Position numbers and translations under genes: made by a program
Assembly (NCBI GenBank): GCA_902554885.1
Contig: CACDPV010000009.1
Span: forward strand, 1-48,520
DNA from: Paracoccaceae bacterium
GTDB lineage: Bacteria; Pseudomonadota; Alphaproteobacteria; Rhodobacterales; Rhodobacteraceae
Reading direction: 5' to 3'
DNA length: 48,520 nucleotides
The notes under the pieces: generated by a model
Database searches by the model: none
What the model was told of the DNA's origin: nothing
Seen by the model: the letters and a program-made list of their open reading frames with translations, nothing else
In this document: positions 10,188 through 25,098 of the stretch, in pieces
Numbering within the stretch: the stretch's first letter is position 1
Layout: each line of letters begins with the position of its first letter

Positions 10188-10261
10188 GCCGCTAAGCGCT
10201 CATTAAGGATATTGAAAACACTCTGCTCATTTTTTAAAGAGAGTTTTATTATGTCAATAAA

Positions 10262-10342
10262 ATGAAAAAACTAATAGCCATACTATCCGTTGTTCTCTCT
10301 GCTAACCAAGTTGGTGTTGAGTTTATGAATGGTACAACATGA
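10262..10342 (+). CDS. Orphan signal-peptide mini-ORF, copy 1
   Basis: 26 codons beginning MKKLIAILSVVLSANQ: two lysines then a hydrophobic core, i.e. a signal peptide with almost nothing behind it. Its TGA overlaps the ATG of the downstream acetyltransferase frame (ATGA at 10339-10342). At the DNA level it closely matches the mini-ORF at 24372-24458 on the other strand, with roughly nine differences in the first 55 bases. Conservation of sequence and of the ATGA junction argues that it acts as a leader or coupling element, or marks a recombination module. Confidence 0.55.
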   Translation: MKKLIAILSVVLSANQVGVEFMNGTT

Positions 10343-12406: not shown

Positions 12407-12501
12407 TTTTTACCCCTCTCTTTTTATCAAATACCAAAGTAGTTACACTATAGAATATAAATTCGCTTAAACTCTATTATATTTTTACTAAAACTAATCG
12501 T

Positions 12502-12560
12502 AGCCCTGCAAACTGCGATACGCAATCATCCTGCTAATGTTTAACTACCTGGTAAAAGTT
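12502..12560 (-). pseudogene. Serine-recombinase (resolvase) C-terminal tail remnant, copy 1
   Basis: On the minus strand the DNA translates as a stop followed by LNISRMIAYRSLQG, matching the helix-turn-helix tail of resolvase/invertase recombinases. It has a stop where KQ is expected and no closing stop after QG. The same segment appears at 12839-12898 (minus) and 22735-22797 (plus). Only the tail remains. Confidence 0.6.
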
Positions 12561-12625
12561 CATTGGTGCATACAGTAAGTGCAGTAAGTATAGATAGCCA
12601 TAAAGAGGTAGAGGTGTATTGGTAG
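12551..12625 (+). CDS. Conserved KDVEVYW-type mini-ORF, copy 1
   Basis: The frame reads GKSSLVHTVSAVSIDSHKEVEVYW and then stops at TAG (12623-12625), directly abutting the ATG of the next gene. It lines up with the mini-ORFs ending at 19426 (plus), 23770 (minus) and 24675 (minus). All four stop immediately after the final Trp. No clear ATG is seen; GTG at 12566 or TTG at 12563 could serve. It may be a coupled leader peptide or the retained end of an integrase N-domain. Confidence 0.5.
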   Translation, partial: GKSSLVHTVSAVSIDSHKEVEVYW

Positions 12626-12793
12626 ATGGAGGATATACTTACTCCAAGTTTGTTTGCCTTTTCGTTCTTAGTTGCTTGGGCAGCAGGTTGGTTGATGGCA
12701 CTATCAAATAAATCTACCAAGCCAATAAGACATGGCTTCTATTATGCTGGTATTGCGTCTTCAGTAATGGTGCTATTGGTTGTATCGTTGTAA
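12626..12793 (+). CDS. Small two-helix membrane protein (55 aa)
   Basis: MEDILTPSLFAFSFLVAWAAGWLMAL is a hydrophobic helix, followed by a basic loop (NKSTKPIRHG) and a second helix ending VMVLLVVSL. Its ATG immediately follows the TAG of the conserved mini-ORF, so translation is probably coupled. It is of the same kind as the other small membrane proteins of the island at 23521-23757 and 24466-24675. Function unknown. Confidence 0.5.
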   Translation: MEDILTPSLFAFSFLVAWAAGWLMALSNKSTKPIRHGFYYAGIASSVMVLLVVSL

Positions 12794-12838
12794 TAAACTA
12801 TAGCTCACAGGTAAAATGAGTTAGACATGAAAAAACTA

Positions 12839-12898
12839 CTAACCCTGCAAACTGCGATACACTGACATCCTGCTAATGTTTAATTGCTTGGCAATATC
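12839..12898 (-). pseudogene. Serine-recombinase C-terminal tail remnant, copy 2
   Basis: The best preserved of three copies. The minus strand reads DIAKQLNISRMSVYRSLQG followed by stop, which is the C-terminal helix-turn-helix of resolvase/DNA-invertase family proteins. An in-frame TAG lies just upstream of the Asp, so the rest of the enzyme is gone. At its other end it runs into a truncated MKKLLT start (12827), the beginning of the island signal-peptide repeat. Confidence 0.7.
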
Positions 12899-12928
12899 AC
12901 CCTAATTAGGAAATTATATTAAAAATAC

Positions 12929-12958
12929 TTGTGTACCATTTATGATATTTGTTTACCA
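12929..12958. repeat. Paired TTGTGTACCA / TTGTTTACCA direct repeat
   Basis: TTGTGTACCA at 12929-12938 and TTGTTTACCA at 12949-12958 are offset by 20 bases, and the tRNA-end copy at 13004 follows. A nearly identical arrangement sits beside the att copy at 19151. This is suggestive of recombinase arm-binding sites or an integrase promoter. Confidence 0.5.
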
Positions 12959-13003
12959 ATTTTATTAGTAAGTAATTGTTTTTAAGAAGTTTTTTTTGAA
13001 AAG

Positions 13004-13023
13004 TGGTGCCCCCACACGGACTC
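13004..13023. repeat. Internal att-like copy of tRNA-Thr 3' end (perfect 20 bp)
   Basis: TGGTGCCCCCACACGGACTC is identical to 25023-25042, the last 20 bases of the tRNA-Thr gene including CCA. Beyond this the sequences diverge. It divides the island into block A (9.5-13.0 kb) and block B (13.0-19.15 kb). Confidence 0.85.
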
Positions 13024-13110
13024 ACAACACCCCTGCTAAATCACAAAGGCGTTTATTTGGATCAGGTCATTTGCTACAAGCGTAGTGACTAAATTTCAGG
13101 GAGTTCGGTC

Positions 13111-13416
13111 ATGGCTCGATATATGTGGTGCGCTAATCACTCATTCAATTCAATTGAGGATCTCAATAAGCATTTGGGGCGCGATGAGAAAGTCTTTATG
13201 AGTATATTGCCAGAACTTAAAGGGAGTGGCCTTGCAGAGTGTAAACGTGGTATTCTGACAGAGGCAGAGGGTAAATACTCTCATGAAGGCATTTTGATAT
13301 TTAATGACAAGGCAGCATACGAGGCGTGTATGCAAATTATTAAAGATGCTGATTGGGATGATGAAATTGTGAAGCAAAACAGATATGAGACCTACATTTT
13401 AGATCATGAATTATGA
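13111..13416 (+). CDS. Hypothetical 101-residue soluble protein
   Basis: Begins MARYMWCANHSFNSIEDLNKHL and ends YETYILDHEL. Two helix-strand units with a strand reading GILIFNDKAAYEACM suggest a ferredoxin-like fold, but I do not recognise the family. TCAGGGAG lies about eight bases upstream of ATG as ribosome binding site. The 3' end (TAGATCATGAATTA) recurs at 22428-22441, beside another att copy, implying that a paralogue or older copy was cut there. Confidence 0.65.
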   Translation: MARYMWCANHSFNSIEDLNKHLGRDEKVFMSILPELKGSGLAECKRGILTEAEGKYSHEGILIFNDKAAYEACMQIIKDADWDDEIVKQNRYETYILDHEL

Positions 13417-13465
13417 GACATAGAAGACTAACACCAATGCATAGGACACAAGTAATAATATTTAA

Positions 13466-13597
13466 GTTGGCAGCTTAATATTCGAGGGCCATGACCACGA
13501 CGACGAGCATGATTACGGTTATGTTGAAGAATTATATGAAAATTTAGAATATATTAACCACCGTATTGATGAACTAGAAGAACGTTTGGAAGAGTAA
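13466..13597 (+). pseudogene. Acidic coiled-coil C-terminal fragment
   Basis: The frame GHDHDDEHDYGYVEEL continues as a leucine-rich acidic helix (LEYINHRIDELEERLEE) and stops at 13597. There is an in-frame TAA just before 13466 and no ATG, GTG or TTG start, so this looks like the 3' end of a lost gene. The signal-peptide mini-ORF at 13602 begins four bases after the stop. Confidence 0.4.
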
Positions 13598-13601
13598 TCC
13601 T

Positions 13602-13661
13602 ATGGGAACCATATTCGCGAGCCTATTTTTGGCTTTTGCAACTCAGTCGAGTGCTGATTAA
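13602..13661 (+). CDS. Orphan signal-peptide mini-ORF, copy 3
   Basis: MGTIFASLFLAFATQSSAD then stop: a 19-residue hydrophobic peptide. It aligns with the leader family through the FATQ(S/A)S ending shared with the copy at 12082. No gene follows directly. Given its size, function as a protein is doubtful, but its repetition matters. Confidence 0.4.
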   Translation: MGTIFASLFLAFATQSSAD

Positions 13662-14084
13662 CAAAACGACAAGCGAATTATCTTTTCTCTATTAGCAAGT
13701 GCAGACTTTATGGAGGTCGGAGCAGTCTATTTCTGTAAATGTAAATTTGCTAGATCTTACCCGAATGGCACTCCAAAGATTCACTTTAAGTATTGTTGAC
13801 TCTTTAAGTGCAACTGTGTTTTAAAAACACGGTTCTTATGGGACTGGGCGACTCCAGTTAATTCGTTTGGGAGGATATTGATTGTAGAGTCGCCATTTTA
13901 ATTTTAGGTAAATTTTATTTCTGAGACATTGTTTCCTACTGCATTTGCAGCATTTGAGAGCATTAATGCTCTATGTAGTCTTCTAAGCATAACCTTTTCC
14001 TTTTTTGTTTTGCGCAAAATTTAGCATATATAGCTGAAATTTTCATCATAAATTGGCTAAAAGCCGTTGCAAAATTAAATTAAA
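13662..14084. other. Non-coding stretch rich in inverted repeats
   Basis: No gene seen. The stem AACTGTGTTTT/AAAACACGGTT lies near 13811-13833. GGCGACTC (13847-13854) pairs with GAGTCGCC (13887-13894) across 32 bases and is followed by ATTTTAATTTT. Perfect palindromes AGAGCATTAATGCTCT (13957-13972) and TTTTGCGCAAAA (14008-14019) follow. These could be operators or parts of structured transcripts. Confidence 0.4.
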
Positions 14085-14227
14085 TCTCCTTACGCAAAGT
14101 CAACCTTGATTTGCGCTGCAATGCAGCATAAATAGAGATGCATAGGGCGGTTCCTCCCAATTTCTGCCCTTCATCTTTACTAAAACGCCAATGCTCCTCA
14201 GAACGGTTATTGGCGTTTTTTTTGTTT
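14085..14227 (+). ncRNA. Candidate structured small RNA ending in an intrinsic terminator
   Basis: Several hairpins stand in a row. CGCAAAGTCAA/TTGATTTGCG (14093-14115, one bulged G) is followed by GCTGCA-A-TGCAGC (14115-14127), then AGGGC/GCCCT (14144-14170), then a strong terminator. There is no reading frame. The layout is typical of a bacterial small RNA, but I recognise no known family and the 5' end is a guess. Confidence 0.35.
14182..14227 (+). terminator. Rho-independent terminator
   Basis: AAAACGCCAAT pairs with ATTGGCGTTTT over a 16-base loop and runs into a T-rich tail (TTTTTTTTTGTTT). This is the clearest intrinsic terminator of the island and requires a plus-strand transcript from upstream, where no gene is found. 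Confidence 0.75.
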
Positions 14228-14456
14228 AAAGACGGACCTCTGTAACGAACTTAACCTGGTTTAACACCGTTACTGACAAAGAAATTAACGTGCTATACCA
14301 AGACAGCAAAGGTCAACTCACGCTATCAATTTTTTATACGATACAACTAGGTTATTCTCGCCGATAACTACGCATCGTATAGTCGTAATAAAATTAAAGC
14401 CCATATTTCAATCTAATTCCTATTTGTTTGCGTAATTACTACTACAAACAGGAGAC

Positions 14457-14651
14457 ATGCAATTGAACGCGCGCAAGGATTTCATCGAGTATGAAGCTGT
14501 ACTGAGGTACTGCTGCATTAAAACAAAGAACAATCACGAGCAAGCATTGCACTACGGACAGTTGAGCGGTTATTTCACCAATGATAACAAACTTACGCCC
14601 ATGGGCCGCCAGGTAGCTCAGTATCTAGAAGACGGATTAGCTGCTTATTAA
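14457..14651 (+). CDS. Hypothetical 64-residue protein, winged-helix-like
   Basis: Begins MQLNARKDFIEYEAVLRYCC; the C-terminal half reads LSGYFTNDNKLTPMGRQVAQYLEDG. The pattern of a small residue run, NKLTxxG and a following helix resembles the wing region of small helix-turn-helix proteins and recurs in the convergent gene at 14700-14918 (KKNRLTKDGH). ACAGGAGAC precedes the ATG closely. No function can be given. Confidence 0.5.
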   Translation: MQLNARKDFIEYEAVLRYCCIKTKNNHEQALHYGQLSGYFTNDNKLTPMGRQVAQYLEDGLAAY

Positions 14652-14699
14652 TCTGCTATCTAGGTTTTTTTGTTTGGTGGTGGCGTGAAGTGCTATGGT

Positions 14700-14918
14700 T
14701 TACCTTGACCAATAATCTTTCCAAGGTTCAGCTGATACATGTTCGTTGAAATTAGATACCAACGCCATTATGTGTCCATCTTTAGTCAGACGATTTTTTT
14801 TATCCAATAAACCTTTGTCTCTGGCTATCTGAACCGCCCTTTTCAAATAGTCGGTCTTACCGACACGTTTACAGTGGTTAATCACAATTATTTTCTGGAA
14901 TTTATCAGCAACAAACAA
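14700..14918 (-). CDS. Hypothetical 72-residue basic protein, winged-helix-like
   Basis: Starts at TTG behind a strong GGAGGAGG Shine-Dalgarno and reads MFVADKFQKIIVINHCKRVG. The segment IARDKGLLDKKNRLTKDGHIMAL parallels the NDNKLTPMG motif of the convergent neighbour. The two may be diverged relatives and possibly small regulators. The TTG start is preferred because no ATG occurs earlier and the binding site is well placed. Confidence 0.5.
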   Translation of the reverse strand: MFVADKFQKIIVINHCKRVGKTDYLKRAVQIARDKGLLDKKNRLTKDGHIMALVSNFNEHVSAEPWKDYWSR

Positions 14919-15149
14919 ATCTAATCCTCCTCCAAGGAATGTCAGGTGATCTGTTGGCTACTTGGTAAAAGTAAAATTGTTCACGGCGAAAAGAAACAAA
15001 AAAAATTACAATTTCGTAAAAATTAAAAATATGCCCAAATATTAGGACTTAAAAAGAAATGTGCCTCAAAAAAAGGATATTTAATCTTAATAAATGTAGA
15101 ATTACACGCTGTGGTTTTGTTTTTAATACGGTAGCCGTATTTTTTACTA

Positions 15150-16574
15150 ATGGAAGCTGACCTTGTGTTTGATGAAATGTGGGCCGATGGCACCTCGATT
15201 CGGCGTCCTTATAAAAATATTAAGACTTGGCTCGACGCTGAGGAACGGAATTCTCTGAAAGCAAAACGTCAAGACGCAAATGATTTATTTAGACTTACAG
15301 GTATCACATTCAATGTGTACGGCTCAGAAGAAGGAGAGGAAAGGCTTATACCATTTGATATTGTTCCAAGAGTGATAACTGCAAACGAATGGAATAAAAT
15401 TTGCAAAGGTCTGGAACAGAGAGTGCGAGCTATAAACGCATTTTTGTACGATATCTATCATGATCAAGAAATCGTTAAAGCAGGCGTACTGCCCCTTGAG
15501 ATGCTCAGAAATAATCCAGCGTTTTTATTGCAGATGATGGGGGTAAATCCCCCCGGTCAAATTTACACGCATATATCAGGTGTCGATCTAATTCGAACCG
15601 AAGAAAATGAATTTTATGTTCTTGAGGATAACGTGCGAACACCCTCAGGCGTAAGTTATATGTTGGAAAATAGAGAAACAATGCTGCAAATGTTTCCCGA
15701 ATTATTTACAAAAAATAGGGTACAGCCAATACAGAATTATCCACAAGAATTACTTTATTCTTTGAAGAACACGCTGCCGGATACTGCGGAAAATAAACCG
15801 AATGTCTGTTTGCTTACACCAGGGCCATACAATTCTGCTTATTTCGAACATGCATTTTTAGCAGACCAGATGGGAATAGAGTTAGTGCAAGGAAACGATT
15901 TAAAGGTAGTAGATGGTTTTTTGGCGATGCGCACTACTCAAGGTCATCAAAAAGTAGACGTTGTATATAAGCGTCTGGATGATGAATTCCTCGACCCATT
16001 AAACTTTAACGAAAAAAGCAGTTTAGGCGTACCGGGCCTGTTTGACGTTTATCGAAAAGGTCGAGTTACAATCGCAAATGCACCAGGCACAGGCATTGCC
16101 GATGATAAGGCTATGTATTCATTTATGCCAGAAATCGTGGAGTTTTACAGCGGGGAGTTTCCCTTACTGCAAAATGTGCCGACATGGCGATGTGCAATTA
16201 AGGATCAATTAAATTACGTATTAGATAACATACATGAGTTAGTGATTAAACAAGTTCATGGTTCTGGCGGATATGGCATGATGATAGGGCCGACGGCCAC
16301 TAAGAAAGATATAGCAAATTTTAGAAGAAAGCTGATAGCAACACCTCAAGATTACATAGCCCAACCGACACTGAGTTTGTCCACAGTGCCAATTTTCACA
16401 AACAAGGGTTTCGCTCCACGACATGTCGATTTAAGACCATTCGTTCAAATGTCACCAGAAAAAATAAATATTGTTCCTGGCGGGCTAACACGTGTCGCTA
16501 TGTCAAAGGGCTCGTTAGTAGTGAATTCATCACAAGGAGGAGGAACCAAGGATACTTGGGTCCTAGAAAACTGA
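15150..16574 (+). CDS. Circularly permuted ATP-grasp protein (DUF404/DUF407)
   Basis: 474 residues of the circularly permuted ATP-grasp type 2 family. Recognisable parts are FDIVPRVITANEWNKICKGL and QRVRAINAFLYDIYHDQEIV in the N-terminal half, NPPGQIYTHISGVDLIR, VLEDNVRTPSGVSYMLENR, VYKRLDDEFLDPL, VTIANAPGTGIADDKAMYSF, and VIKQVHGSGGYGM as the nucleotide-binding loop. The family is predicted to form amide or peptide bonds, and is known to cluster with alpha-E, transglutaminase-like and Anbu genes. The stop overlaps the next start as TGATG. The first ATG at 15150 has only a weak upstream binding site. Confidence 0.9.
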   Translation: MEADLVFDEMWADGTSIRRPYKNIKTWLDAEERNSLKAKRQDANDLFRLTGITFNVYGSEEGEERLIPFDIVPRVITANEWNKICKGLEQRVRAINAFLYDIYHDQEIVKAGVLPLEMLRNNPAFLLQMMGVNPPGQIYTHISGVDLIRTEENEFYVLEDNVRTPSGVSYMLENRETMLQMFPELFTKNRVQPIQNYPQELLYSLKNTLPDTAENKPNVCLLTPGPYNSAYFEHAFLADQMGIELVQGNDLKVVDGFLAMRTTQGHQKVDVVYKRLDDEFLDPLNFNEKSSLGVPGLFDVYRKGRVTIANAPGTGIADDKAMYSFMPEIVEFYSGEFPLLQNVPTWRCAIKDQLNYVLDNIHELVIKQVHGSGGYGMMIGPTATKKDIANFRRKLIATPQDYIAQPTLSLSTVPIFTNKGFAPRHVDLRPFVQMSPEKINIVPGGLTRVAMSKGSLVVNSSQGGGTKDTWVLEN

Positions 16575-17515
16575 TGTTGGGCAATACAGCTAATGGTCTT
16601 TTTTGGACCTATCGACTCTTGGAAAGAGCCGAAAATATGTCACGGTTGATAGAAACTGGACAGCGGATAGCATTAACAAGACTAAATAGCTCTGATAAAC
16701 AATGGTTGTACGTTATGCAAACCGCAGCAGTATCTTCAGAATATACAAAATATTATAATAAAGTCGAAAAAGAGGCTGCTTTAGATTGGATGTTGAAACA
16801 TCCTAAAAATAATTCATCCATTTTATCTAGTATTACTTCTGCCCGGCAAAACGCAAAAATGGTTCGACACGCTCTTACGACCGATGTTTGGGAAGCAATA
16901 AATGGATCTTTTCTTGATATTCAAAATCTTCTCAAAGGCAAGATAAGAGAAAGAGATCTCTCAATTATCCTTCGAACAATAAAACAAAGCGCGGCTCTTG
17001 TCCGTGGTGCAACATATGGAACAATGTTGAGGAATGAAGAGTATGATTTTTGTCGACTAGGTACTTTTATTGAGCGCGCAGATAATACAGCACGAATTTT
17101 GGATGTGAAATACTACGTATTATTACCGTCTGCAAAAGCTGTTGGCACTTCGATTGACAATGTTCAATGGGAAACAATTCTGAGATCAGTATCTGCTTAC
17201 GGCGGATTTAGATTAGAATATGGACATGAAGCTGGACCTAGTGACATTGCTAAGTTTCTTATTCTAGATAAACGCATGCCTAGAAGTTTGATTTATTGTT
17301 GTGAGATCCTCAAGCTTCATCTTTTAAGTTTATGTTCCACTTATAGCAATAAGCCGGCATCTTTTTCACAAATAATGCAGTTACAAAATAGGTTTTTAAC
17401 TCATGATATTGATGCAATTTTTGAATTTGGTTTGCATGACTTTCTACAAAAGATGATTTCTCTTTTTGCAGATTTGAGTGCGCAAATCGAAATTGATTAT
17501 AGATTTTACAAATGA
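16574..17515 (+). CDS. Alpha-E domain protein (DUF403)
   Basis: 313 residues, almost entirely helical, beginning MLGNTANGLFWTYRLLERAENMSRLIETG. This N-terminus, with the LFWxxRxxERAENxAR pattern, is the alpha-E signature. FCRLGTFIERADNTARILD in the second half is the internal partner of the same motif. I start it at 16574 because the ATG overlaps the preceding TGA (TGATG); the upstream TTG at 16556 would add six residues that do not fit the family. Biochemical role unknown; it always accompanies the ATP-grasp partner. It overlaps the next gene by ATGA. Confidence 0.9.
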   Translation: MLGNTANGLFWTYRLLERAENMSRLIETGQRIALTRLNSSDKQWLYVMQTAAVSSEYTKYYNKVEKEAALDWMLKHPKNNSSILSSITSARQNAKMVRHALTTDVWEAINGSFLDIQNLLKGKIRERDLSIILRTIKQSAALVRGATYGTMLRNEEYDFCRLGTFIERADNTARILDVKYYVLLPSAKAVGTSIDNVQWETILRSVSAYGGFRLEYGHEAGPSDIAKFLILDKRMPRSLIYCCEILKLHLLSLCSTYSNKPASFSQIMQLQNRFLTHDIDAIFEFGLHDFLQKMISLFADLSAQIEIDYRFYK

Positions 17516-18312
17516 AGAAGTTGAACGTTACTCATAAAACAAAATACTCATTTGAGGCAGGACCATTAAGCGGTCTGCAACAAATAAAAAAGACCCCCTA
17601 CTCAGATGCTTGCCAAACTGTTTTAAATTGGTCTCTTTTACTTACAGGGGCAAAAGAAGAACTTACATTTACAGATTCTTTTAACAATAATGTTAATTTG
17701 ATACGAGTTGAACCAGGAACAAAGGACCTTGTAATAGAATGTGAAGGACATGTGGAAGTAATGGATAAGTCTGGAGTACTTGGTTATGAAGCAAGCAAGA
17801 TACCTTTATGGCTTTGGACTGACTACACCAATTTGACCAAGCCTGGATCAGGGATTAGAAAATTTGCAAAGGGCTTGCCATTAAAAGATGATATAGGTGG
17901 TTTTCATAAACTTATGGAACTCATAAGCGGTTCACTAGACTTTCAGAAGAACATTACGAACGTAAAAACTACTGCTGAGGAAGCCTTTAAAAAAGGCTCT
18001 GGTGTTTGCCAAGATTTTACAAACATATTCATAGCTTGTTGCAGGCTACATGGGCTACCAGCGCGTTATGTATCTGGTTTTCTACTTTTAGAGAACAAGC
18101 AAATTCAAGAAGCAATGCATGCTTGGGCTGAGGTTTTTGTAGAAGGTTTAGGTTGGGTAGGTTTTGACACAGCAAATAAAATTTCCCCAGATGACAGATA
18201 TATCCGAGTGGCAATTGGTCGAGACTACTCGGATGCAGCTCCGATTAAAGGTGTCACACTTGGCGTTCAACATGAGTGCTTATCTGTATCCATTATGATA
18301 TCGGAGCAATAA
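17512..18312 (+). CDS. Transglutaminase-like cysteine peptidase
   Basis: 266 residues. An N-terminal beta-sandwich region (transglutaminase N) opens with KLNVTHKTKYSF, followed by a transglutaminase-like core. The catalytic triad is readable: Cys166 in GSGVCQDFTN, His203 in AMHAWAEVFV, and Asp219 in GWVGFDTAN. Such proteins in this context are thought to cleave or reverse peptide modifications made by the ATP-grasp partner. ATGA overlap upstream; four bases separate it from the protease gene. Cytoplasmic, as no signal peptide is present. Confidence 0.92.
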   Translation: MKKLNVTHKTKYSFEAGPLSGLQQIKKTPYSDACQTVLNWSLLLTGAKEELTFTDSFNNNVNLIRVEPGTKDLVIECEGHVEVMDKSGVLGYEASKIPLWLWTDYTNLTKPGSGIRKFAKGLPLKDDIGGFHKLMELISGSLDFQKNITNVKTTAEEAFKKGSGVCQDFTNIFIACCRLHGLPARYVSGFLLLENKQIQEAMHAWAEVFVEGLGWVGFDTANKISPDDRYIRVAIGRDYSDAAPIKGVTLGVQHECLSVSIMISEQ

Positions 18313-18316
18313 AGGT

Positions 18317-19066
18317 ATGAGCTACTGCGTTGGAATATCGACAAAATATGGTTTAGCTTTTATGTCCGATACACGAACAAATGCCGGTTTAGACGATCTC
18401 TCACAATTCAAAAAACTCTTTACTTGGGGCCGCTCAGATGACCGACTATTCACACTCCTAAGCGCGGGCAATCTTGCGACAACGCAGGCAGTTGTTTCGG
18501 AAATAGATCAAGATTTTAAAAGCAAAAAAAGCCAGCTACATAGGTGCAAATCGATGTTTGAAGTGGCAGAATTTGTAGGTCAGAAATTGAGTCAAAAAGT
18601 GAAACAACACTCAGAGAACGGGATAAATGGCGAAAGTACGTTTCAGGCTAATTTAATATTAGGTGGTCAAATTAAAGGATCAAAACCTTCTCTTTTTCTT
18701 ATATACCCGGAGGGAAATTTTATAGAAGCGACTGAAGATACGCCTTTTTTTCAAATTGGAGAAATAAAATATGGTCGCCCAATCCTCGTAAGAGCCTATC
18801 GGCGAGACCTGAGTATGAAGGATATTTTCAAACTTTTAATAGTTAGCTTCGACTCCACCTTGAAAGCCAATTTAACAGTTGGTTTTCCACTAGATTTTCA
18901 GATTTACTTTACCGATACTATAAAATCTGGCGTCGAGGGCCGTTTGAATGCAAATGATCCATACTTTGTTGATGTAAGTAATGCATGGAGCAGAGGGCTG
19001 GAAGATTTATTGTTAAGACTACCCGGCTTAACTCTGAGTGAAGAAGTAAATAAACAAAAAGAATAG
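18317..19066 (+). CDS. Anbu proteasome-like peptidase (proteasome-type N-terminal nucleophile hydrolase)
   Basis: 249 residues beginning MSYCVGISTKYGLAFMSDTRTNAG. Removal of Met exposes Ser as the likely N-terminal nucleophile; Asp17 (after Met removal) lies in SDTR and a Lys pair lies near 31-32 in FKKLF, matching the proteasome beta-subunit layout. Anbu proteins form open helical or ring assemblies and co-occur with the three preceding families. Fourth and last gene of the operon, ending 85 bases before an att copy, so the whole system sits inside one island block. Confidence 0.9.
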   Translation: MSYCVGISTKYGLAFMSDTRTNAGLDDLSQFKKLFTWGRSDDRLFTLLSAGNLATTQAVVSEIDQDFKSKKSQLHRCKSMFEVAEFVGQKLSQKVKQHSENGINGESTFQANLILGGQIKGSKPSLFLIYPEGNFIEATEDTPFFQIGEIKYGRPILVRAYRRDLSMKDIFKLLIVSFDSTLKANLTVGFPLDFQIYFTDTIKSGVEGRLNANDPYFVDVSNAWSRGLEDLLLRLPGLTLSEEVNKQKE

Positions 19067-19150
19067 TTCTTTTTCAAAGCGAATGTTTCCCCTGTGTTTC
19101 CCCACAGAAGTTTTCATCATACCCTCGTATACCTAAGTCATTGATAACAA

Positions 19151-19170
19151 TGGTGCCCCCACACGCACTC
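19151..19170. repeat. Internal att-like copy of tRNA-Thr 3' end (19/20)
   Basis: TGGTGCCCCCACACGCACTC differs at one base from the tRNA-Thr end at 25023-25042. It separates the Anbu-containing block from the block with GST and cyclase genes. Confidence 0.8.
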
Positions 19171-19245
19171 TTACCACAATAGGAAACGTGTATTTTATTA
19201 TTATAATCAGTAGTTTATAGACTACCAGAACATCTCACTATAATT

Positions 19246-19279
19246 TTTTGTGTACCATTTTTATTTGTTTTGTGTACCA
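19246..19279. repeat. Perfect TTTTGTGTACCA direct repeat, 22-bp offset
   Basis: TTTTGTGTACCA occurs at 19246-19257 and 19268-19279, two helical turns apart. It lies on the right side of the att copy at 19151 and upstream of the conserved mini-ORF. It closely resembles the pair at 12929-12958. Confidence 0.6.
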
Positions 19280-19333
19280 AAAATACTGCGCAGAGCCAGC
19301 TGTACTAAGTGTGGCTAGCAAGGGAATAACCAG

Positions 19334-19426
19334 ATGCGTCCAGTCAATGTTGGAAGGTCTGCTTTAGCTCAAACAGGATCAGCCGTTAATAAGTACAGCC
19401 ATAAAGATGTAGAGGTTTATTGGTAA
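19334..19426 (+). CDS. Conserved KDVEVYW-type mini-ORF, copy 2
   Basis: A 30-codon frame from an ATG: it starts MRPVNVGRSALAQTGSAVNK and ends YSHKDVEVYW, then TAA. Of the four copies this is the only one with an ATG. The DNA after the stop (GGTAAAGAAACTATTAGCAATA) resembles the start of the signal-peptide repeat, as if the two elements once stood in tandem. See the findings for the alignment. Confidence 0.5.
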   Translation: MRPVNVGRSALAQTGSAVNKYSHKDVEVYW

Positions 19427-19451
19427 AGAAACTATTAGCAATAATATACTG

Positions 19452-19652
19452 CTATTCTACTCTTTGCCCATTCTCTATTTTTGGCAAAGGCTTAAAAATT
19501 ACCCAGTTGAGGAAGGCAGCCAGTAATAAAAATGCTATAATTCCAAGAAAGATAGAGCCATGCCAACCCATAGAACCAAGTACTAAAAGTCCTATTGTTG
19601 TGGCGACTCCCATTGCTAAGGCCAATGCAAGAACCCCTATTGTACCACTCAT
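19452..19652 (-). CDS. Small two-helix membrane protein (66 aa)
   Basis: MSGTIGVLALALAMGVATTI and a second segment (GSIFLGIIAFLLLAAFLNWVIF) are hydrophobic, followed by a short polar tail KPLPKIENGQRVE. GGGGAG before the ATG is a plausible binding site. The family is not recognised. Confidence 0.55.
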   Translation of the reverse strand: MSGTIGVLALALAMGVATTIGLLVLGSMGWHGSIFLGIIAFLLLAAFLNWVIFKPLPKIENGQRVE

Positions 19653-19835
19653 AATTTTAACTCCCCATTAAGTGTCAATGAAAGTTTATACCATTTGGTT
19701 TGTTCTGCAAAGGATTATGCAAGGATTGATAAGGGTTCCTCTATTTGATTGAATAAGATTTTTGCAGTAAACAATCGCTTTTACATTAGTTTCTATTCTT
19801 GTTGCTTTGTTCGGCACGTAATATAAGCTACTATT

Positions 19836-20453
19836 ATGGTAAATGGTACAACTTCTTACAAACTTTATGGCATACCTTATTTAGGTTCTATGGCTATTGA
19901 ATTATTAATGGAAGAGGCTGGTATAAAATATGACATTATTTTTGCAACTCCAGAGGAAAGAAGCTCCGTAGAGTTTAAAATGATTTCGCCTAGAGGATTA
20001 GTGCCTGTTCTGATTACTCCAAGTGGGCAATCTATTTTTGAAGGACCTGCAATTATTAATTTTCTGTTAGAAACACATCATACCGATTTAATCGCCCCTA
20101 TTGGCAACCCAGATAGAGCCATATGTTTTCAATGGCTTTCTTTCCTTTCTACAGCACTAGGAAATGCCAACAACCGTTTTTTCTTTCCTGATCGATATGG
20201 CTCTTCAGAAATTGATATCAAAGAAAAAGCTGAATTAGATAGGAAGGCTTGTTACGATATCTTGGAGAAACACGTTGACGGTTTTTTATCAGGAAAAACT
20301 TGTGGAATTGCAGACTTCTACTTTTATGTTTTAATGAACTGGGATGATAATAAAACTGATGAACTAGCCAAAAGACCAAATCTTGAGAAAATATTTAATC
20401 AGGTTAACGAAACCCCATCAGTTCAAAAAGTGCTAAAAAATCAAACTTCTTAG
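19836..20453 (+). CDS. Glutathione S-transferase-like protein
   Basis: 205 residues. The thioredoxin-like N-domain runs KLYGIPYLGSMAIELLMEEAGIKYDIIF and contains the cis-Pro and Ser region GLVPVLITPSGQSIFEGPAIINFL. An all-helical C-domain follows, with GIADFYFYVLMNWD matching the N-capping motif of GST helix 6. No Cys or Tyr catalytic residue is certain at the N-terminal active site (a Ser in LGSMA is the candidate). Cargo of island block C. Confidence 0.85.
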   Translation: MVNGTTSYKLYGIPYLGSMAIELLMEEAGIKYDIIFATPEERSSVEFKMISPRGLVPVLITPSGQSIFEGPAIINFLLETHHTDLIAPIGNPDRAICFQWLSFLSTALGNANNRFFFPDRYGSSEIDIKEKAELDRKACYDILEKHVDGFLSGKTCGIADFYFYVLMNWDDNKTDELAKRPNLEKIFNQVNETPSVQKVLKNQTS

Positions 20454-20568
20454 CATTAGGTCTAATTATATATCCTTTAGAACCAGCTTGTTTGAGTTTA
20501 GTTTTTAGATAGGCCATGTGCTGTATATTTGCATGGTCTATTCGCTTGTATTCTGGAGATACTTCCAT
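20404..20568 (-). CDS. Possible 54-residue small protein, antisense to GST 3' end
   Basis: The minus-strand frame from the ATG at 20568 reads MEVSPEYKRIDHANIQHMAY and continues KTKLKQAGSKGYIIRP. It is basic with a protein-like composition and fills a gap between genes. It overlaps the last 50 bases of the GST gene. No clear binding site or family; weakly supported. Confidence 0.25.
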   Translation of the reverse strand: MEVSPEYKRIDHANIQHMAYLKTKLKQAGSKGYIIRPNAKKFDFLALFELMGFR

Positions 20569-20641
20569 GCTATATACTTTTTGCCTTTTCAGAGTTTAAA
20601 TACCTTTGTCCAAGTATTAATTGAATCTAAGGAGAGCTTAG

Positions 20642-22411
20642 ATGACTGAAGATCGGATTATTCGTAAAATCGCAGTGATATTTGTGACAGACGTTGTCAG
20701 TTTTAGCACGCTCATGGAAAGAAATGAGAATTCTACACTTAGAAGTCTTCGGGCCTGTCGTGATATCATAGACCAACTTTTCAAGAAATATGATGCTCGT
20801 ATTTTTAATACAGCAGGAGATTCAGTTCTTGCCGAATTTCCGAGTGCAGTAACTGCATTAGTTTGTGCTACTGAATTTCAGAAAATGATTAATAAACGCA
20901 ATCTTTCCGTATCAGAAGATTTACAGATGCAGTTTCGTATTGGTCTTAATATAGGTGATGTTATTGTAGAGGGGACAAACCTTTATGGTGAGGGGGTAAA
21001 TAATGCCGCACGGCTAGAAGTATTAAGCCAACCAGGGGGTGTGTCGTTATCAAAAGCAATATATGATTTTGTAAATAAAAAAGTAGAATTTAAATTTAAT
21101 GACCTCGGTACTCAGAAAATAAAAAATACTGAATTACACGCTTATGACGTGATCATAGAAGGTTTAGAACATCGGGCATTAGGTTCTTCAATTGGATCAA
21201 GCGAAATAACTGAAAGCAAGCCACCAACAATTGCTGTAATGCCGTTCAAAAATATGACTAATGATGAAGAACAAGAATACTTTGTTGATGGGGTTACAGA
21301 AGATATCATTGCTAATCTCTCTTCTTGGAAATCTTTTCCAGTTATCGCTAGAAACTCTACCTTTAGCTTCAAAGGACAAGAAATAAAATCCTCAGAATTG
21401 GGTCAGCGATTGGGGGCAGATTATATCGTTGAGGGCAGCATACGGAAAGGTGGCAATAAGATACGAATTTCAGCAAGCTTAGTAGATTCAAAAGATGATC
21501 AACAAGTTTGGTCTAAACGCTGGGATCGCTCGTTGGATGATATTTTTGAGGTCCAAGACGAGGTATCACAGGAGGTTGCAACATTGATTTTTCCAGCTCT
21601 TAAAGGAAAAGAGCACGAACGCATACGAACCAAGTCGCCTTCATCTTTGTCTGCCTGGGACAACTATTTGAAAGCGCTTGCTATATATAACCAGACATGG
21701 GCTGGGGACGATCCAGATGAAGTTGCGAACAAGGCATTTTTCGAACTTTGCGATAATGCAATAGCTATGGATCCAGATTTGTGTGACGCTTACGTACTTA
21801 AAGCCAGACGCATTTATGGCAACTTATTTATATCTATACATCAACATAAGCGCAAAGAAAACGAGTTATTATTTCATGATCTGTCTTTCAAAGCTTATTC
21901 TATCGACCCTAATAATCCTGAAGCGGTCGCTATGTATAGTAGATCTTTTAATCTTAAAAAAGATTACCCACAGCGATTGAAATATGCCAGACAGGCATTG
22001 GACCTGAACCCAAGCCACGATGGATCAAATAATGACTATGGCTGGGCTTTATGTAACGAAAAGCGTTTTGAAGAAGCAGAATATTATCTATTAAAAGCAA
22101 TGGACATGAACCCAATTGGCAGGAGAAGCTATGAGGGATTAATGCCTTTTCTTTACATGGCAATGGCTGATTCTAATAAGAGCTTAGAGTGGTGCAATAC
22201 TCTTTATGATAGGGGTTCGCACAGTCGTTATGATGGTTGGAGGGCAGCAATCTATGTTCATCTGGGAGATTTTGAGCGTGCTAGAATATTTTTGACAAAA
22301 TTTCGTGAAGAGCGTCCAGAAGTTAAGACAATAGAAGATTATAAAAAGGTTGCCCCGTCTATTTGTAAGGACTACCTAATTGACGGACTTAGTCAAATTT
22401 GGAACAATTAA
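20642..22411 (+). CDS. Class III adenylate/guanylate cyclase with TolB-like and TPR regions
   Basis: 589 residues. An N-terminal class III cyclase catalytic domain occupies about 1-175: the metal Asp are in IFVTDVVSFS (D17) and TAGDSVLAEF, and VNNAARLE carries the transition-state Asn and Arg. A TolB/FlgO-like region (IAVMPFKNMTNDEEQEYFVDG to WSKRWDRSL) covers about 195-300. Tetratricopeptide-like repeats (DPNNPEAVAMYSRSF, LNPSHDGSNNDYGWAL) fill the C-terminus. This architecture is widespread in alphaproteobacteria. AAGGAGAG precedes ATG. It produces a cyclic nucleotide in response to an unknown signal; all catalytic residues seem present. Confidence 0.9.
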   Translation: MTEDRIIRKIAVIFVTDVVSFSTLMERNENSTLRSLRACRDIIDQLFKKYDARIFNTAGDSVLAEFPSAVTALVCATEFQKMINKRNLSVSEDLQMQFRIGLNIGDVIVEGTNLYGEGVNNAARLEVLSQPGGVSLSKAIYDFVNKKVEFKFNDLGTQKIKNTELHAYDVIIEGLEHRALGSSIGSSEITESKPPTIAVMPFKNMTNDEEQEYFVDGVTEDIIANLSSWKSFPVIARNSTFSFKGQEIKSSELGQRLGADYIVEGSIRKGGNKIRISASLVDSKDDQQVWSKRWDRSLDDIFEVQDEVSQEVATLIFPALKGKEHERIRTKSPSSLSAWDNYLKALAIYNQTWAGDDPDEVANKAFFELCDNAIAMDPDLCDAYVLKARRIYGNLFISIHQHKRKENELLFHDLSFKAYSIDPNNPEAVAMYSRSFNLKKDYPQRLKYARQALDLNPSHDGSNNDYGWALCNEKRFEEAEYYLLKAMDMNPIGRRSYEGLMPFLYMAMADSNKSLEWCNTLYDRGSHSRYDGWRAAIYVHLGDFERARIFLTKFREERPEVKTIEDYKKVAPSICKDYLIDGLSQIWNN

Positions 22412-22427
22412 GAACCTTAGACTTTCT

Positions 22428-22465
22428 CGTAGATCATGAATTAAATGGTGCCCCCATACTGGGTT
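22428..22465. repeat. Internal att-like copy (partial) with adjoining gene scar
   Basis: TGGTGCCCCCA at 22446-22456 is identical to the tRNA 3' end, after which the sequence diverges (TACTGGGTT). TAGATCATGAATTA at 22428-22441, just before it, is identical to the last codons of the gene at 13111-13416. This junction therefore joins two sequences found elsewhere in the island. Confidence 0.6.
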
Positions 22466-22553
22466 CTGCTCCTTACCTCTGCACTGCATCTGAGCTAACA
22501 CCCTGTTTTTATTACATACAGCATACACTAGTTCATCTCAATACTGCGTATCT

Positions 22554-22576
22554 TGGTCAGTAATATGGTCAGTAAT
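22554..22576. repeat. Perfect TGGTCAGTAAT direct repeat, 12-bp offset
   Basis: TGGTCAGTAAT at 22554-22564 and 22566-22576. On the minus strand this reads ACTGACCA twice, like the pair just upstream of the integrase remnant at 24909-24928. It lies about 100 bases from the att copy at 22446. Confidence 0.55.
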
Positions 22577-22734
22577 TCCTTATCGTTACTAGTATAGGGA
22601 TGACACTGGGGTGTGGCTTCCTTAATGTAACAATGACCTACCGCTTAACCGTGTGTAAGACATACCCATGCCGGACCCTTCGCAAGTGACGGATATACGT
22701 AGTTGTACTCTTACACAGATAGGGTTTAACCAAA

Positions 22735-22797
22735 GCAGTAATCGCCAAGTAGTTTAACATTAGCAGGATGAGTGTGTATTGCAATTCCCAGGGTTAG
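22735..22797 (+). pseudogene. Serine-recombinase C-terminal tail remnant, copy 3
   Basis: The plus strand reads AVIAK-stop-FNISRMSVYCNSQG-stop, the same helix-turn-helix tail as at 12839-12898, with a stop in place of Gln and two changed residues. It lies in the opposite orientation to the other two copies. Confidence 0.6.
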
Positions 22798-22882
22798 TTA
22801 TGGCAGTGACTAAGAGCCTTTTATATAGCAGTAGGTTTTACAGCACTTCCAAATGGTGCAAAACCAGAGTGGGTGCGACATT

Positions 22883-22956
22883 CTGTCCACATTTTCTGTG
22901 GATGATATGGTGGATTGTGGATAAGATTGTGGATAAAGGCAAAAAGTTGTTGATAA
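22883..22956. promoter_or_regulatory. Cluster of DnaA boxes (possible replication origin remnant)
   Basis: Two perfect TGTGGATAA boxes (22916-22924, 22928-22936), TGTGGATGA (22897-22905), TGTTGATAA (22948-22956) and an inverted CTGTCCACA (22883-22891) occur within 75 bases. AT-rich DNA with A-runs follows to about 23000. TCCACA-TTTTC-TGTGGA forms an inverted repeat. This density is far above chance and is like phage, plasmid or satellite origins. Frame 22779-23021 crossing it shows no protein character. Confidence 0.6.
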
Positions 22957-23021
22957 CTTCACTTTCAAAAAATTTTAGTGTTGATCAAAAAAAATCGTAT
23001 GCCATAGTATACTTAGTCTAG

Positions 23022-23520
23022 TCTGGGGGTAATAAGTTTTCAGGCTCAATTCTGGAAACAGGATTAAGTCTAAATCATGTTACAACTGTTGGAGAACAGA
23101 TACTGGAACGGTTAAGATCCTTGGATCGTAACCGGGAAAGTATCGGCAGAGGGGTGCGAGAAGAGTAACGGTTCAAGCCGACATCTGACGTAGCAAACAG
23201 GTCAAGCTGACACTGCAATGCGCTCATAGGCAGGATATGCGGCTCGTCCGCATTGAAGGTCTCTAGCGGGTTGGATTAGAGACATGGGCGTCTTTAGGAT
23301 TTTTCCTTGAGGCGCTCATGCTTTTTTAGGCTTCCATTTTCATTGCATCAGGCATACCATTTTATGGCGGTTCTTTGGTATCTTTCATCCACCTTGCTTT
23401 TGTCTATAACTTTGTTTTTTAACAAAGAGCATATCCTCATGCAAAAGACTTTTTAAAAGAGGCAAATCCTGGTTAGTTGTGTCTTCGATAAATTTCTCTA
23501 ATACCAACACCAATAAACCT
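23022..23520. other. Gene-free stretch with a fragment-like frame and a hairpin
   Basis: No complete gene. A frame ending at 23168 (VTTVGEQILERLRSLDRNRE) looks like a helical C-terminal fragment without a start. GGTTCAAGCCGACATCTG near 23171 is loosely repeated as GGTCAAGCTGACACTG near 23202. A strong hairpin closes the region at 23286-23316. Confidence 0.35.
23286..23327 (+). terminator. Long hairpin with T-run
   Basis: GGGCGTCTTTAGGA pairs with TCCTTGAGGCGCTC (one mismatch, some G-T pairs) over a short T-rich loop, followed by ATGCTTTTTT. It would end a plus-strand transcript from the DnaA-box region, possibly an untranslated RNA. Confidence 0.45.
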
Positions 23521-23757
23521 CTACTTACTAAGCCAATTATCTATGAGACCAAACTTGAAAAGAGCCCATCGAGTTCCGTAAAACGTTAGCAATAACATCA
23601 CTGCATCCACGGCTAGCCATAATAATAAATTCACATTACCGCTATCTGTGGCACTGAATACAGCAGGAAGTACATACCTGTCACCTAAGAAATAGAGAAT
23701 TATAAAAGCAACTAATGAAGGTACTCCATTTCTTATTAAATTCTCTTTAGTAAACAT
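23521..23757 (-). CDS. Small two-helix membrane protein (78 aa)
   Basis: MFTKENLIRNGVPSLVAFII begins the first hydrophobic helix (to about residue 34). A second helix, LLLWLAVDAVMLLLTFYG, is followed by a basic amphipathic end WALFKFGLIDNWLSK. It lies 12 bases downstream of the conserved mini-ORF ending at 23770. No family recognised. Confidence 0.55.
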   Translation of the reverse strand: MFTKENLIRNGVPSLVAFIILYFLGDRYVLPAVFSATDSGNVNLLLWLAVDAVMLLLTFYGTRWALFKFGLIDNWLSK

Positions 23758-23769
23758 GATAGGTAGATC

Positions 23770-23829
23770 TCACCAGTTAAACTCTACATCTTTATGGCAA
23801 TATTTATTTACCGCACTTGTTGTCTGCAC
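23770..23829 (-). CDS. Conserved KDVEVYW-type mini-ORF, copy 3
   Basis: From a GTG at 23829 the frame reads VQTTSAVNKYCHKDVEFNW, then TGA. An in-frame TAG directly precedes the GTG. It shares SAVNKY and HKDVE with the copy at 19334-19426. The ATG of the membrane-protein gene follows 12 bases after the stop. Confidence 0.5.
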   Translation of the reverse strand: MQTTSAVNKYCHKDVEFNW

Positions 23830-23883
23830 CTAAAAACTTTTAAAATAGGGAAATTAAAGAGCAGAATTATGACCCATTACAGA

Positions 23884-24375
23884 CTAATTAGAAATCCCTT
23901 GCTTTAACTCCTCTAGGTACCGATCCACGCCCACTTCTTTAATATAATCTTCGTCCTCTGAAGCATATTTTACGTCTACTTTTAGTCTGTCAGTGTATAC
24001 CTCAAGCCAGTAATCAATATGATCTATCATATCTTTTGCTGCAACCTCCGAGGTAATACGTAACAAGCTAATATTATTCTTTTTACACCACAGCGATTTA
24101 ATTGCGTGCCTACGCTTTGCGATGACTAAATTATGCTTATTTTTTGCTTCGTCCTCAGACCAGTGACTTAATTTGAGTGGCAAGTGAGCATCGTATTCTA
24201 GGGCCGTAAAGTATTTTGGTAAGTAAAAATCAAAACGCAGTTTGCCAATGTCGATACAATCGTGATCCGTCCATTTTTCAATGTAGTCAACACCAAGCTC
24301 TCTTAATGCCATTGCTACAGCAGCAGGTCCTTCACATTCAATATTCACTTTTTTTATACGTGGAATTTTAATCAT
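23884..24375 (-). CDS. PD-(D/E)XK endonuclease-like protein (Vsr/homing-type)
   Basis: 163 residues. The central segment LRFDFYLPKYFTALEYDAH followed by a basic stretch (KNKHNLVIAKRRHAIKSLWC) and NNISLLRIT matches the layout of phage and Vsr-like PD-(D/E)XK nucleases: (L/F)DFYLP...(I/L)EYD, then K...yC..NNI.LLRI. Asp in RFDFY and Glu in ALEYD are the likely metal ligands. The usual G-Q-H after EYD is absent. Its ATG overlaps the TGA of the signal-peptide mini-ORF (ATGA). Possible roles are homing, mobility or defence. Confidence 0.6.
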   Translation of the reverse strand: MIKIPRIKKVNIECEGPAAVAMALRELGVDYIEKWTDHDCIDIGKLRFDFYLPKYFTALEYDAHLPLKLSHWSEDEAKNKHNLVIAKRRHAIKSLWCKKNNISLLRITSEVAAKDMIDHIDYWLEVYTDRLKVDVKYASEDEDYIKEVGVDRYLEELKQGISN

Positions 24376-24458
24376 GGGTTAATTGCGTTTTTAAGCTCTT
24401 GCGCACTTGCTTGGTTAGCAAACAGAACAACAGATAGTATGGCTAATAGCTTTTTCAT
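24372..24458 (-). CDS. Orphan signal-peptide mini-ORF, copy 4
   Basis: 28 residues: MKKLLAILSVVLFANQASA, then QELKNAINP and TGA. This is a complete Sec signal peptide with an Ala-x-Ala cleavage site and only nine residues behind it. The TGA overlaps the ATG of the nuclease-like gene as ATGA, the same junction as at 10339. It begins eight bases after the stop of the upstream membrane-protein gene. Confidence 0.6.
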   Translation of the reverse strand: MKKLLAILSVVLFANQASAQELKNAINP

Positions 24459-24465
24459 TTACCAT

Positions 24466-24675
24466 TCACCACGACCAGGGAGGGGGTTGTTTAGGGTCAG
24501 TCTTAACTGTCTTTGATGCCATCATCTTTAAGGTTATGAGCAGACAGGTAATTGCTCCAAATACCAAACCACTAATAACAAAATATGCAGAATAGTCCTC
24601 GTTGGAAGTCCAAAGAGCAAATATGGCTGATACGATAGCAGCTATACCAAAGATTATTGTTTTGTATTTAAGCAT
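24466..24675 (-). CDS. Small two-helix membrane protein (69 aa)
   Basis: MLKYKTIIFGIAAIVSAIFA forms a first helix and YFVISGLVFGAITCLLITLK the second; the tail TVKTDPKQPPPWSW is proline-rich. I start it at 24675 because that ATG overlaps the preceding mini-ORF stop (TGATG); earlier in-frame codons would run into the mini-ORF. Function unknown. Confidence 0.55.
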   Translation of the reverse strand: MLKYKTIIFGIAAIVSAIFALWTSNEDYSAYFVISGLVFGAITCLLITLKMMASKTVKTDPKQPPPWSW

Positions 24676-24757
24676 CACCAAACATTCTCTACATCTTTTT
24701 GGCTATCTTTGTTTACAGTACTTCCTATCTGCGCCAAAGAACTTTTGTCAGTTAAAT
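24675..24757 (-). CDS. Conserved KDVEVYW-type mini-ORF, copy 4
   Basis: The frame reads NLTDKSSLAQIGSTVNKDSQ, then KDVENVW and TGA, matching the copies at 12551-12625 (KSSL, DS, K-VE, W) and 19334-19426 (LAQ-GS-VNK, KDVE). Its TGA overlaps the next ATG (TGATG). No ATG start is seen; TTG at 24737 is possible. It follows the integrase N-terminal remnant in a shifted frame, which suggests that it derives from the integrase. Confidence 0.5.
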
Positions 24758-24921
24758 TGCTTAGTTAAACTTGTATTCTTTGCTTGGCTAGGAGAGCGTG
24801 TACGAAGCCCCTGAACTACTCTGGGATAGCGATAGTGGCCTATAAGGTCAGATGGCACTCTGCGTTAGAAGTAGTAATAGCCACCCCTGTTAAACGTATA
24901 TGGGATACTTTTGGTCTGCAT
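24748..24921 (-). pseudogene. Tyrosine integrase N-terminal remnant (DUF6538-like)
   Basis: From the ATG at 24921 the minus strand reads MQTKSIPYTFNRGGYYYF, TAA at 24865-24867, then RRVPSDLIGHYRYPRVVQGL and RTRSPSQAK, and ends at 24748. The YYYFRRRVPxDL...SLRTRSPSxA pattern is the N-terminal domain of DUF6538-type phage integrases. The catalytic domain is missing. The position, about 100 bases from the tRNA and pointing away from it, is where an integrase normally sits in a tRNA-targeting element. Confidence 0.75.
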
Positions 24922-25011: not shown

Positions 25012-25042
25012 GGGAGTAATTATGGTGCCCCCACACGGACTC
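25012..25042. repeat. Right outer att site within tRNA-Thr 3' end and flank
   Basis: The last 20 bases of tRNA-Thr (25023-25042) plus 11 flanking bases are repeated at 9525-9554. The 20-base tRNA part alone recurs at 13004, 19151 and in part at 22446. This is the intact attachment site. Confidence 0.85.
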
Positions 25043-25098
25043 GAACCGCGGACCTACTGATTACAAATCAGTTGCTCTACCAGCTGAGCTATAGGGGC
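25023..25098 (-). tRNA. tRNA-Thr (anticodon UGU)
   Basis: A 76-base cloverleaf on the minus strand with encoded CCA. The acceptor stem GCCCCTA pairs with TGGGGGC, the D-arm contains TAGCTCAGCTGGTAGAGCA, the anticodon arm CTGATTTGTAATCAG has the loop TTTGTAA and so anticodon TGT, and the T-arm contains GGTTCGAGTCC. Its 3' end is the integration target of the island to its left. Confidence 0.97.

Follow-up and report, generated by a model that had tools for sequence, protein, structure and literature searches.

In integron cassette arrays, small genes that are unrelated to one another alternate with a short related site, and the dif/pdif modules moved by XerC/XerD are small modules without a recombinase of their own. 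In the additive genomic islands of streamlined plankton, as described in the consulted parts of reports on Actinomarinales (PMC7771536) and Methylophilaceae (PMC10872708), small sets of genes are added at a fixed target and each addition leaves a partial direct repeat of that target; these islands vary in size and hold many unknown genes. Protein-coding genes can also be entered: according to the accessible part of PMC8409611, integrative elements insert into dusA, yicC and trmE and restore the reading frame. Here we describe a stretch of 48,520 nucleotides (the window) from a marine Rhodobacteraceae genome (GCA_902554885.1, contig CACDPV010000009.1) in which four short related sequences, each ending in a tryptophan codon and a stop, stand in front of island genes. 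By sequence comparison, these four are displaced 3' ends of one small gene for a zinc-ribbon-like protein. We refer to this parent gene of 91 codons as the head, and to its last 72 nt (codons 69-91 and the stop) as the block. On balance we think it probable, though by no means assured, that the 3' end of the head served as a site-specific insertion target in an additive island anchored at a tRNA gene.

Results

The four copies and their parent gene

The window contains four related copies of the block, two on each strand. Copy 1 (12554..12625, plus strand) is a 5'-truncated 3' end of the head with stop codon TAG. Copy 2 (19280..19426, plus strand) is a longer remnant of the head that covers codons 44-91 with one TAG; its block lies at 19355-19426 and ends on TAA. 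Copy 3 (23770..23841, minus strand) has an in-frame TAG inside and ends on TGA. Copy 4 (24675..24746, minus strand) likewise has TGA as its stop. Protein and DNA searches confirm the four related copies noticed in the first-pass annotation of this DNA and place their similarity beyond chance: copy 2 used as a 30-residue query matches copies 1, 3 and 4 with E-values of 2e-4, 2e-4 and 8e-4, and used as a DNA query it finds copy 1 at 7e-6, copy 3 at 2e-5 and, weakly, copy 4 (0.29). The copy pairs 1-2, 1-3, 1-4 and 3-4 are 75-78% identical over 56-72 nt, and a 72-nt sequence model of the block, which was built partly from the window copies, scores them at 2.7e-21, 9.6e-19, 1.5e-18 and 4.1e-16. The ending in Trp-stop with three different stop codons is likewise borne out, as are the layouts reported for the next gene, whose start abuts the stop of copy 1 (TAGATG), overlaps that of copy 4 (TGATG) and lies 12 nt behind copy 3. 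The extents of the units had to be revised at the DNA level, copy 3 being longer and copy 4 shorter than originally described; the TAG of copy 3 sits inside the conserved stretch, just beyond the part first recognized. The copies are not conserved mini-ORFs (open reading frames), as had been proposed, since an in-frame ATG occurs only in copy 2, where it corresponds to a methionine codon within the parent gene; for copies 1 and 4, no methionine follows the last upstream stop of the frame. Copy 2 also has a junction unlike those of the other copies, located at the motif RRARCTKCG and preceded by TGTGTACCA repeats, which may resemble integrase arm sites.

The 30-residue query finds seven places in the window's own genome (G000, 53% complete), namely the four window copies and three on contig C12. 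One of the latter is a 99-residue open frame containing the complete 91-residue ORF MIQLKRNKSHHFYIECKNDSCRHNAMVPVSALLKEYGEDITSDEVLRRARCTKCGFQGNNQMRLVYVGKSALAQTGSAVNQESIKDVEVYW, the head. The label zinc-ribbon rests on its cysteines and on two weak Pfam matches of zinc-finger type below cut-off, and no family matched in NCBIfam up to E 1 or in PHROG up to 0.1. The same query matches 7 of 61 genomes searched, all within the window's genus (7 of 16, own genome included), and the head gene is open in the own genome and in six of the other 15. Its seven named loci belong to records of marine-type Rhodobacteraceae or of Marinovum metagenome-assembled genomes. The block model gives 37 matches at E<=0.01 in 10 of the 16 genus genomes, of which the first 28, located in seven genomes, are treated as firm. 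Among them, 9 heads are intact (one contains Ns) and another 2 span the full length but are broken; copy 2 and G009:C72 are longer remnants, 10 fragments begin at the left end of the block and 4 at about column 33, and 1 case is unclear. No intact head runs past the tryptophan as an integrase; 8 of the 9 stop there and one, G006:C14:7662, ends one residue earlier with VENV-stop. Outside the genus, 12 of 293 sampled genomes match a profile built from the whole protein. An origin of the head from phages was considered and rejected, as no phage match was obtained and none of seven pattern-matched viral-contig stretches encodes a relative; a plasmid origin was set aside on finding only three weak partial matches, on Sinorhizobium plasmids. 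The own genome also holds a 5' fragment of the head gene covering the first 30 residues (L078, G000:C37, 2028-2117), which continues in frame into sequence resembling the end of the TGTTTCCCC element and a tRNA 3' region.

Heads and fragments differ in the way their blocks diverge. In ten full-length copies (nine of them intact) the differences fall on codon positions 1:2:3 in the ratio 204:126:336, compared with 169:182:196 in nine fragments, two of which contain an in-frame stop. Codon-level selection acts on the head gene and not on the fragments. This count, used in place of a tree-based ratio of nonsynonymous to synonymous changes (dN/dS), excludes the two longer remnants, the broken G012:C5 copy, 29767, 33285 and the four column-33 sites. 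Conservation within the fragments is lowest in the right quarter of the block (0.745 versus 0.756-0.819). A single-sequence structure model of the head is weak, with a mean predicted local distance difference test score (pLDDT) of 61, and was used only for the border between fold and tail. The last strand comprises residues 62-68 and residues 72-91 have a pLDDT below 50, which suggests a border where the protein may tolerate exchange.

A shared border of truncation

After alignment of each fragment with the head consensus, the left limit of similarity was placed by likelihood, a procedure that took in 29767 and the four column-33 sites. For the ten left-end fragments the border lies at column 0 in 8 cases and at -4/-5 in 2, the interval being wide (-9 to 9) for G006:C4:6464. 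These ten represent five upstream contexts: a tyrosine-integrase remnant (2 fragments), sequence that follows an endonuclease-like gene (3), an antisense fragment of a resolvase helix-turn-helix (HTH) region (2), a 20-nt stretch common to two sites with different genes before it (2), and a context seen once (1). The four fragments beginning at about column 33 stand behind a cupin gene or its end.

A change at the same border is found within an intact gene. The head G006:C14:7662 is 87-91% identical to L018, L019, L002 and L023 over codons 1-68 and 61-76% identical in the block, with a changepoint at column -1 in these 4 of 9 comparisons (p<0.003); the smallest changepoint p is 3.9e-6, uncorrected for 45 pairs. 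In the comparison with L019, identity is 91% over codons 1-68 and 66% in the block (p 5e-6, again uncorrected for 45 pairs), and synonymous changes affect 11 of 20 block codons and 16 of 68 upstream codons. Because the change in the tail is largely synonymous, the tail seems to have been swapped for that of a distant working copy and not to have evolved under relaxed constraint, and the gene is still open with its exchanged 3' end. Against the remaining heads the drop is present, with the changepoint at 3, 8, -162 or -169, or weak (L029). A second mosaic border, at column 42, divides L018 and L020 from L021 and L022.

The specificity of the recurrence was assessed with the last 72 nt of 370 ORFs (at least 80 aa) from 354 kb of genus loci, counting as a recurrence a match whose upstream 60 nt are unmatched. 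Of the 370 ORFs, 12 meet this definition. Copies of the head make up nine of the 12, and each recurs in truncated form 2 to 10 times; the other three do so once or twice, and one of these ends antisense to the integrase remnant. Within the scanned block-bearing loci, no 3' end other than that of the head has more than two 5'-truncated recurrences; the loci were picked for holding blocks, which favours the head, and the comparison is therefore valid only among genes of those loci.

Neighbouring genes and insertions

The neighbours of the block assort independently, one upstream sequence being combined with different next genes and one gene with different upstream sequences. For example, the integrase remnant leads to the ORF MLKYK... 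(24466..24675, minus strand) behind copy 4 in the window and to MIEMHK in G011:C30, the cupin (assigned by Pfam) leads to three different cargos, and the MLKYK cargo has three upstream sequences. The 55-aa ORF MEDIL... (12626..12793, plus strand), which follows copy 1 directly, is also found behind an intact head in G012:C10 and behind a fragment in G011:C30. Copy 3 is followed by the 78-aa ORF MFTKEN... (23521..23757, minus strand), whose terminal TAG belongs to a second, partial block; of this block only the right end is present (GTAGAGGTTTATTGGTGT, 23507..23524, minus strand), and the next gene comes after it. Directly upstream of copy 3 stands a gene for a 163-aa HNH/homing-endonuclease-like protein (23884..24375, minus strand), which matches phrog_559 (E 2.9e-14) and phrog_9084 (E 5e-10) and has no Pfam match at E 0.01.

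Starts of next genes cluster at the stop of the block. An ORF of at least 40 aa starts within -5..+22 nt of the block end at 19 of 31 sites (six of the 37 block-model matches were set aside), compared with 22% of 4,000 random positions (binomial 3e-6). The proportion is 8/11 for full-length copies and 11/20 for the others (0.001), and 8/15 when repeated cargo is merged by hand (0.008). Several of the next genes are short or broken, for instance behind G011:C30:30429, and copy 2 has no start within this interval. We read the start positions as reflecting either which inserts survive or the original operon layout. Reassortment of neighbours and clustering of starts together uphold the first-pass proposal that the sequence acts as an insertion platform.

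An empty and a filled site are available for one insertion. In G011:C11 the order is cupin, block and a gene Z, and G006:C4 has about 3.05 kb of extra sequence between the block and Z. This insert is flanked by GTAGAGGTTAATTGGTGAT and GTAGCGGTTTATTGGTGAT, which are alike at 17 of 19 nt and constitute an imperfect direct repeat of the right end of the block. A target repeat thus flanks an insertion whose empty site exists elsewhere, in a single clean case with the empty site behind a cupin and not behind a head. The right-hand repeat of the G006:C4 insertion is retained in the window, at the orthologous position 23507-23524.

Island setting and integrase remnants

The part of the window from 9.5 to 25.1 kb is anchored at tRNA-Thr(tgt) (25023..25098, minus strand), and partial tRNA 3' ends lie near 9524, 13001, 19148 and 22443; an Rfam scan of the window returned tRNA only. 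With a further one at 25020, these partial tRNA-Thr ends delimit consecutive stretches of the island. The stretch of about 3.3 kb that holds copy 2 (19149..22459) has partial tRNA-Thr 3' ends at both sides and is absent from G012:C10, which retains one tRNA-Thr-end repeat at the equivalent place. Compared with G003:C1, G012:C15 carries an insert of 4.7 kb with a tRNA-Arg end as its boundary. Insertions bounded by partial tRNA direct repeats, as in additive flexible genomic islands, are therefore found here. We also observe that a right-hand sequence beginning TGGKTTCTRCTYCTTACC follows the tRNA-Thr-type repeat in the window and G012:C10 and the tRNA-Arg-type repeat in G012:C15, a pattern suggestive of a single element family with two tRNA targets.

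Joined to copy 4 is a 5' remnant of a tyrosine integrase of the DUF6538 type (24751..24921, minus strand; 57 codons, one TAA inside). In a 76%-identical relative, the corresponding stretch scores above cut-off for DUF6538. PF00589 is matched by an open 385-aa frame in G002:C15. The order tRNA-Thr, integrase remnant, block is the same in the window and in G011:C30, with different genes behind. The suggestion that the copies are the retained end of an integrase N-domain is correct in so far as such a remnant adjoins copy 4, but the KDVEVYW ending is the C-terminal tail of the zinc-ribbon-like protein.

Other short sequences recur in the region. Decayed C-terminal ends of a serine recombinase (HTH_7; IAKQLNISRMSVYRSLQG-stop) are repeated at 12501-12555, at 12840-12896 (antisense) and at 22684-22798 (plus strand), the PF00239 domain itself being absent from G000; an antisense resolvase-HTH fragment (12501-12553) directly precedes copy 1. 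A 51-nt signal-peptide-like start (MKKLLAIL...) occurs at 10260-10310 and, inverted, at 24410-24460 with 90% likeness, and pieces related to it occur in four or more congener loci.

A homologous gene in another genus

The genome G084, which belongs to another genus, has 14 places with the core of the RARCHNCG region of a homologous gene (six stretches were read); five include the 5' part of the gene and nine lack it, and G309 has one more place. Many of the G084 places have a segment of about 80 nt in common, with sharp ends. The genome also contains 26 PF00589 places, some within 3 kb of the homologous segments, and one integrase gene ends about 35 nt from such a segment. The same gene therefore seems to be a recurrent target in a relative that retains its integrases.

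Discussion

The mechanism we propose would begin with a site-specific recombinase placing incoming DNA at the 3' end of the head gene. The insert would bring or restore a full tail and stop, and the old tail would be left behind as a marker. Repeated rounds of this process, together with losses and rearrangements in the tRNA-anchored additive island, would have given the four copies in the window. Inserts able to use the operon position behind the stop of the tail would be retained, and because such inserts were kept, the next start would tend to sit on that stop. The best candidate for the recombinase is the tyrosine integrase of the DUF6538 type, known here only as fragments. It is also conceivable, but we regard it as unlikely, that the locus is a capture system, in which the exchangeable, probably disordered tail of the zinc-ribbon protein would be the recombination site. 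A recombinase acting in trans would then insert unrelated genes behind codon 69, each insert would restore the tail, and the stop of the tail, with its ribosome-binding region, would couple the translation of the arriving gene.

Several observations weigh against insertion at the tail. The orientation of the copies in the window is mixed (+,+,-,-), and ten fragments represent fewer than ten events, as those with a common context may go back to one. More than one border is seen, at column 0, at column 33 (24-40; four cupin sites, one context) and at the repeat at columns 55-72, and further changepoints fall close to column 42 or well away from the block; the sharp ends in G084 lie at a different point of the gene. 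If the tail simply travelled with the cargo, heads with the same cargo should have more similar blocks, which is not the case (L020/L024: 79% and 73%). The recombinase poses a further difficulty. No integrase gene stands at an element end near the blocks, only N-terminal integrase remnants, and within 20 kb of any block there is no PF00589 match in seven genomes. The nearest such match is sub-threshold and about 22.6 kb off (G003:C1), and the next, a gene of XerD size, is 86 kb off (G011:C11). In G011, which is 95% complete, only two PF00589 genes are present, of XerC/XerD size, and PF00239 gave a single match in the seven genomes, at a contig edge away from the blocks.

The main rival explanation is operon shuffling. 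Homologous and illegitimate recombination in a hypervariable island would here act without a dedicated recombinase, with duplicated 3' ends of the head as homology anchors and stop-start overlap junctions retained by selection for expression. Mosaic borders inside the block near column 42, the other short repeats of the region (resolvase HTH ends and the signal-peptide-like 5' end), the lack of a recombinase close to the blocks in the PF00589 and PF00239 searches and the position of next starts near the stop all fit this explanation. It does not predict, however, one truncation point across five upstream contexts, nor that only the 3' end of the head recurs more than twice, and we judge it rather improbable. 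Integron-like cassettes, each an ORF with the block as its recombination site, moved in trans by a recombinase and with the head as one such ORF, are a more doubtful explanation still. It accounts for upstream genes of several kinds (cupin, GFA, endonuclease-like) that end just before or inside the block, and for runs of blocks in the same orientation (G011:C30 4/4, G012:C10 3/3, G000:C12 3/3, G006:C4 2/2), but orientation is mixed in the window (2+,2-) and in G006:C14 (1+,1-), several units hold many genes, and three blocks folded as DNA or RNA gave no hairpin (z -1.48 to +1.18). A PF00589 search found no integrase gene near the blocks and none in G000, a genome 53% complete; no IntI-specific model was run. 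The idea of the block ends as two related crossover cores was also tried and rejected, as the left end matches the right at 9-11 of 18 positions, no better than elsewhere in the gene.

Two further explanations we consider highly improbable. The first-pass annotation had envisaged a selected leader peptide, that is, a translated mini-ORF whose peptide sequence controls the gene behind it. Most copies keep the Trp-stop and next starts lie close by, which agrees with this, but the codon-level conservation expected of a translated leader peptide is absent in the nine fragments, as the codon-position counts and in-frame stops given above indicate, copies 1 and 4 lack a start, and the possible ribosome-binding-site part is not better conserved. 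Scarcely credible, too, is homing, in which the neighbouring endonuclease-like gene would cut the 3' end of the head and spread with it, yielding the truncations; the 163-aa gene is directly upstream of copy 3 and stands in the same position in G012:C10 and G011:C46, but such a gene is present in only one of the five upstream contexts.

Relation to known systems

In our judgement, the acting enzymes and the expression of newcomers are largely open questions for the additive islands of streamlined marine bacteria. A target in a protein tail leaves countable, decaying fragments and often sets the next gene on a stop-start junction, so that one can test which enzyme recognises the tail and whether coupling drives the expression of inserts. 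If true, the tail-capture system would be a protein-coding analogue of the integron platform with no integrase beside it. Like integron cassettes, the units are unrelated small genes with a short related site between them; in contrast to these, the block has no hairpin fold, overlaps coding sequence, and has no integron integrase in its vicinity as far as found. With dif/pdif modules the units share small size and the lack of their own recombinase, and by eye, without a formal scan, the block has no dif-like 11-6-11 layout.

In the titles and abstract openings listed by searches of the open-access literature we found no account of the head gene or of its 3' end as an insertion site, and none that joins additive islands and protein-gene insertion with a protein tail as anchor. 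Judged by the consulted parts of the sources, the elements in dusA, yicC and trmE (PMC8409611) likewise exchange the terminal part of a protein gene and keep its frame open, but they carry their own integrase, whereas none was found beside the blocks, where units often consist of one to few genes. The additive islands (PMC7771536, PMC10872708) present, in the parts consulted, the same picture of insertion; theirs repeat tRNA ends, whereas here the 3' end of a protein gene is repeated too, beside the tRNA-Thr repeats. Measured against these partly consulted sources, frame-restoring insertion into protein genes and additive islands with tRNA ends are already known, and the novelty would lie in the protein tail as the anchor.

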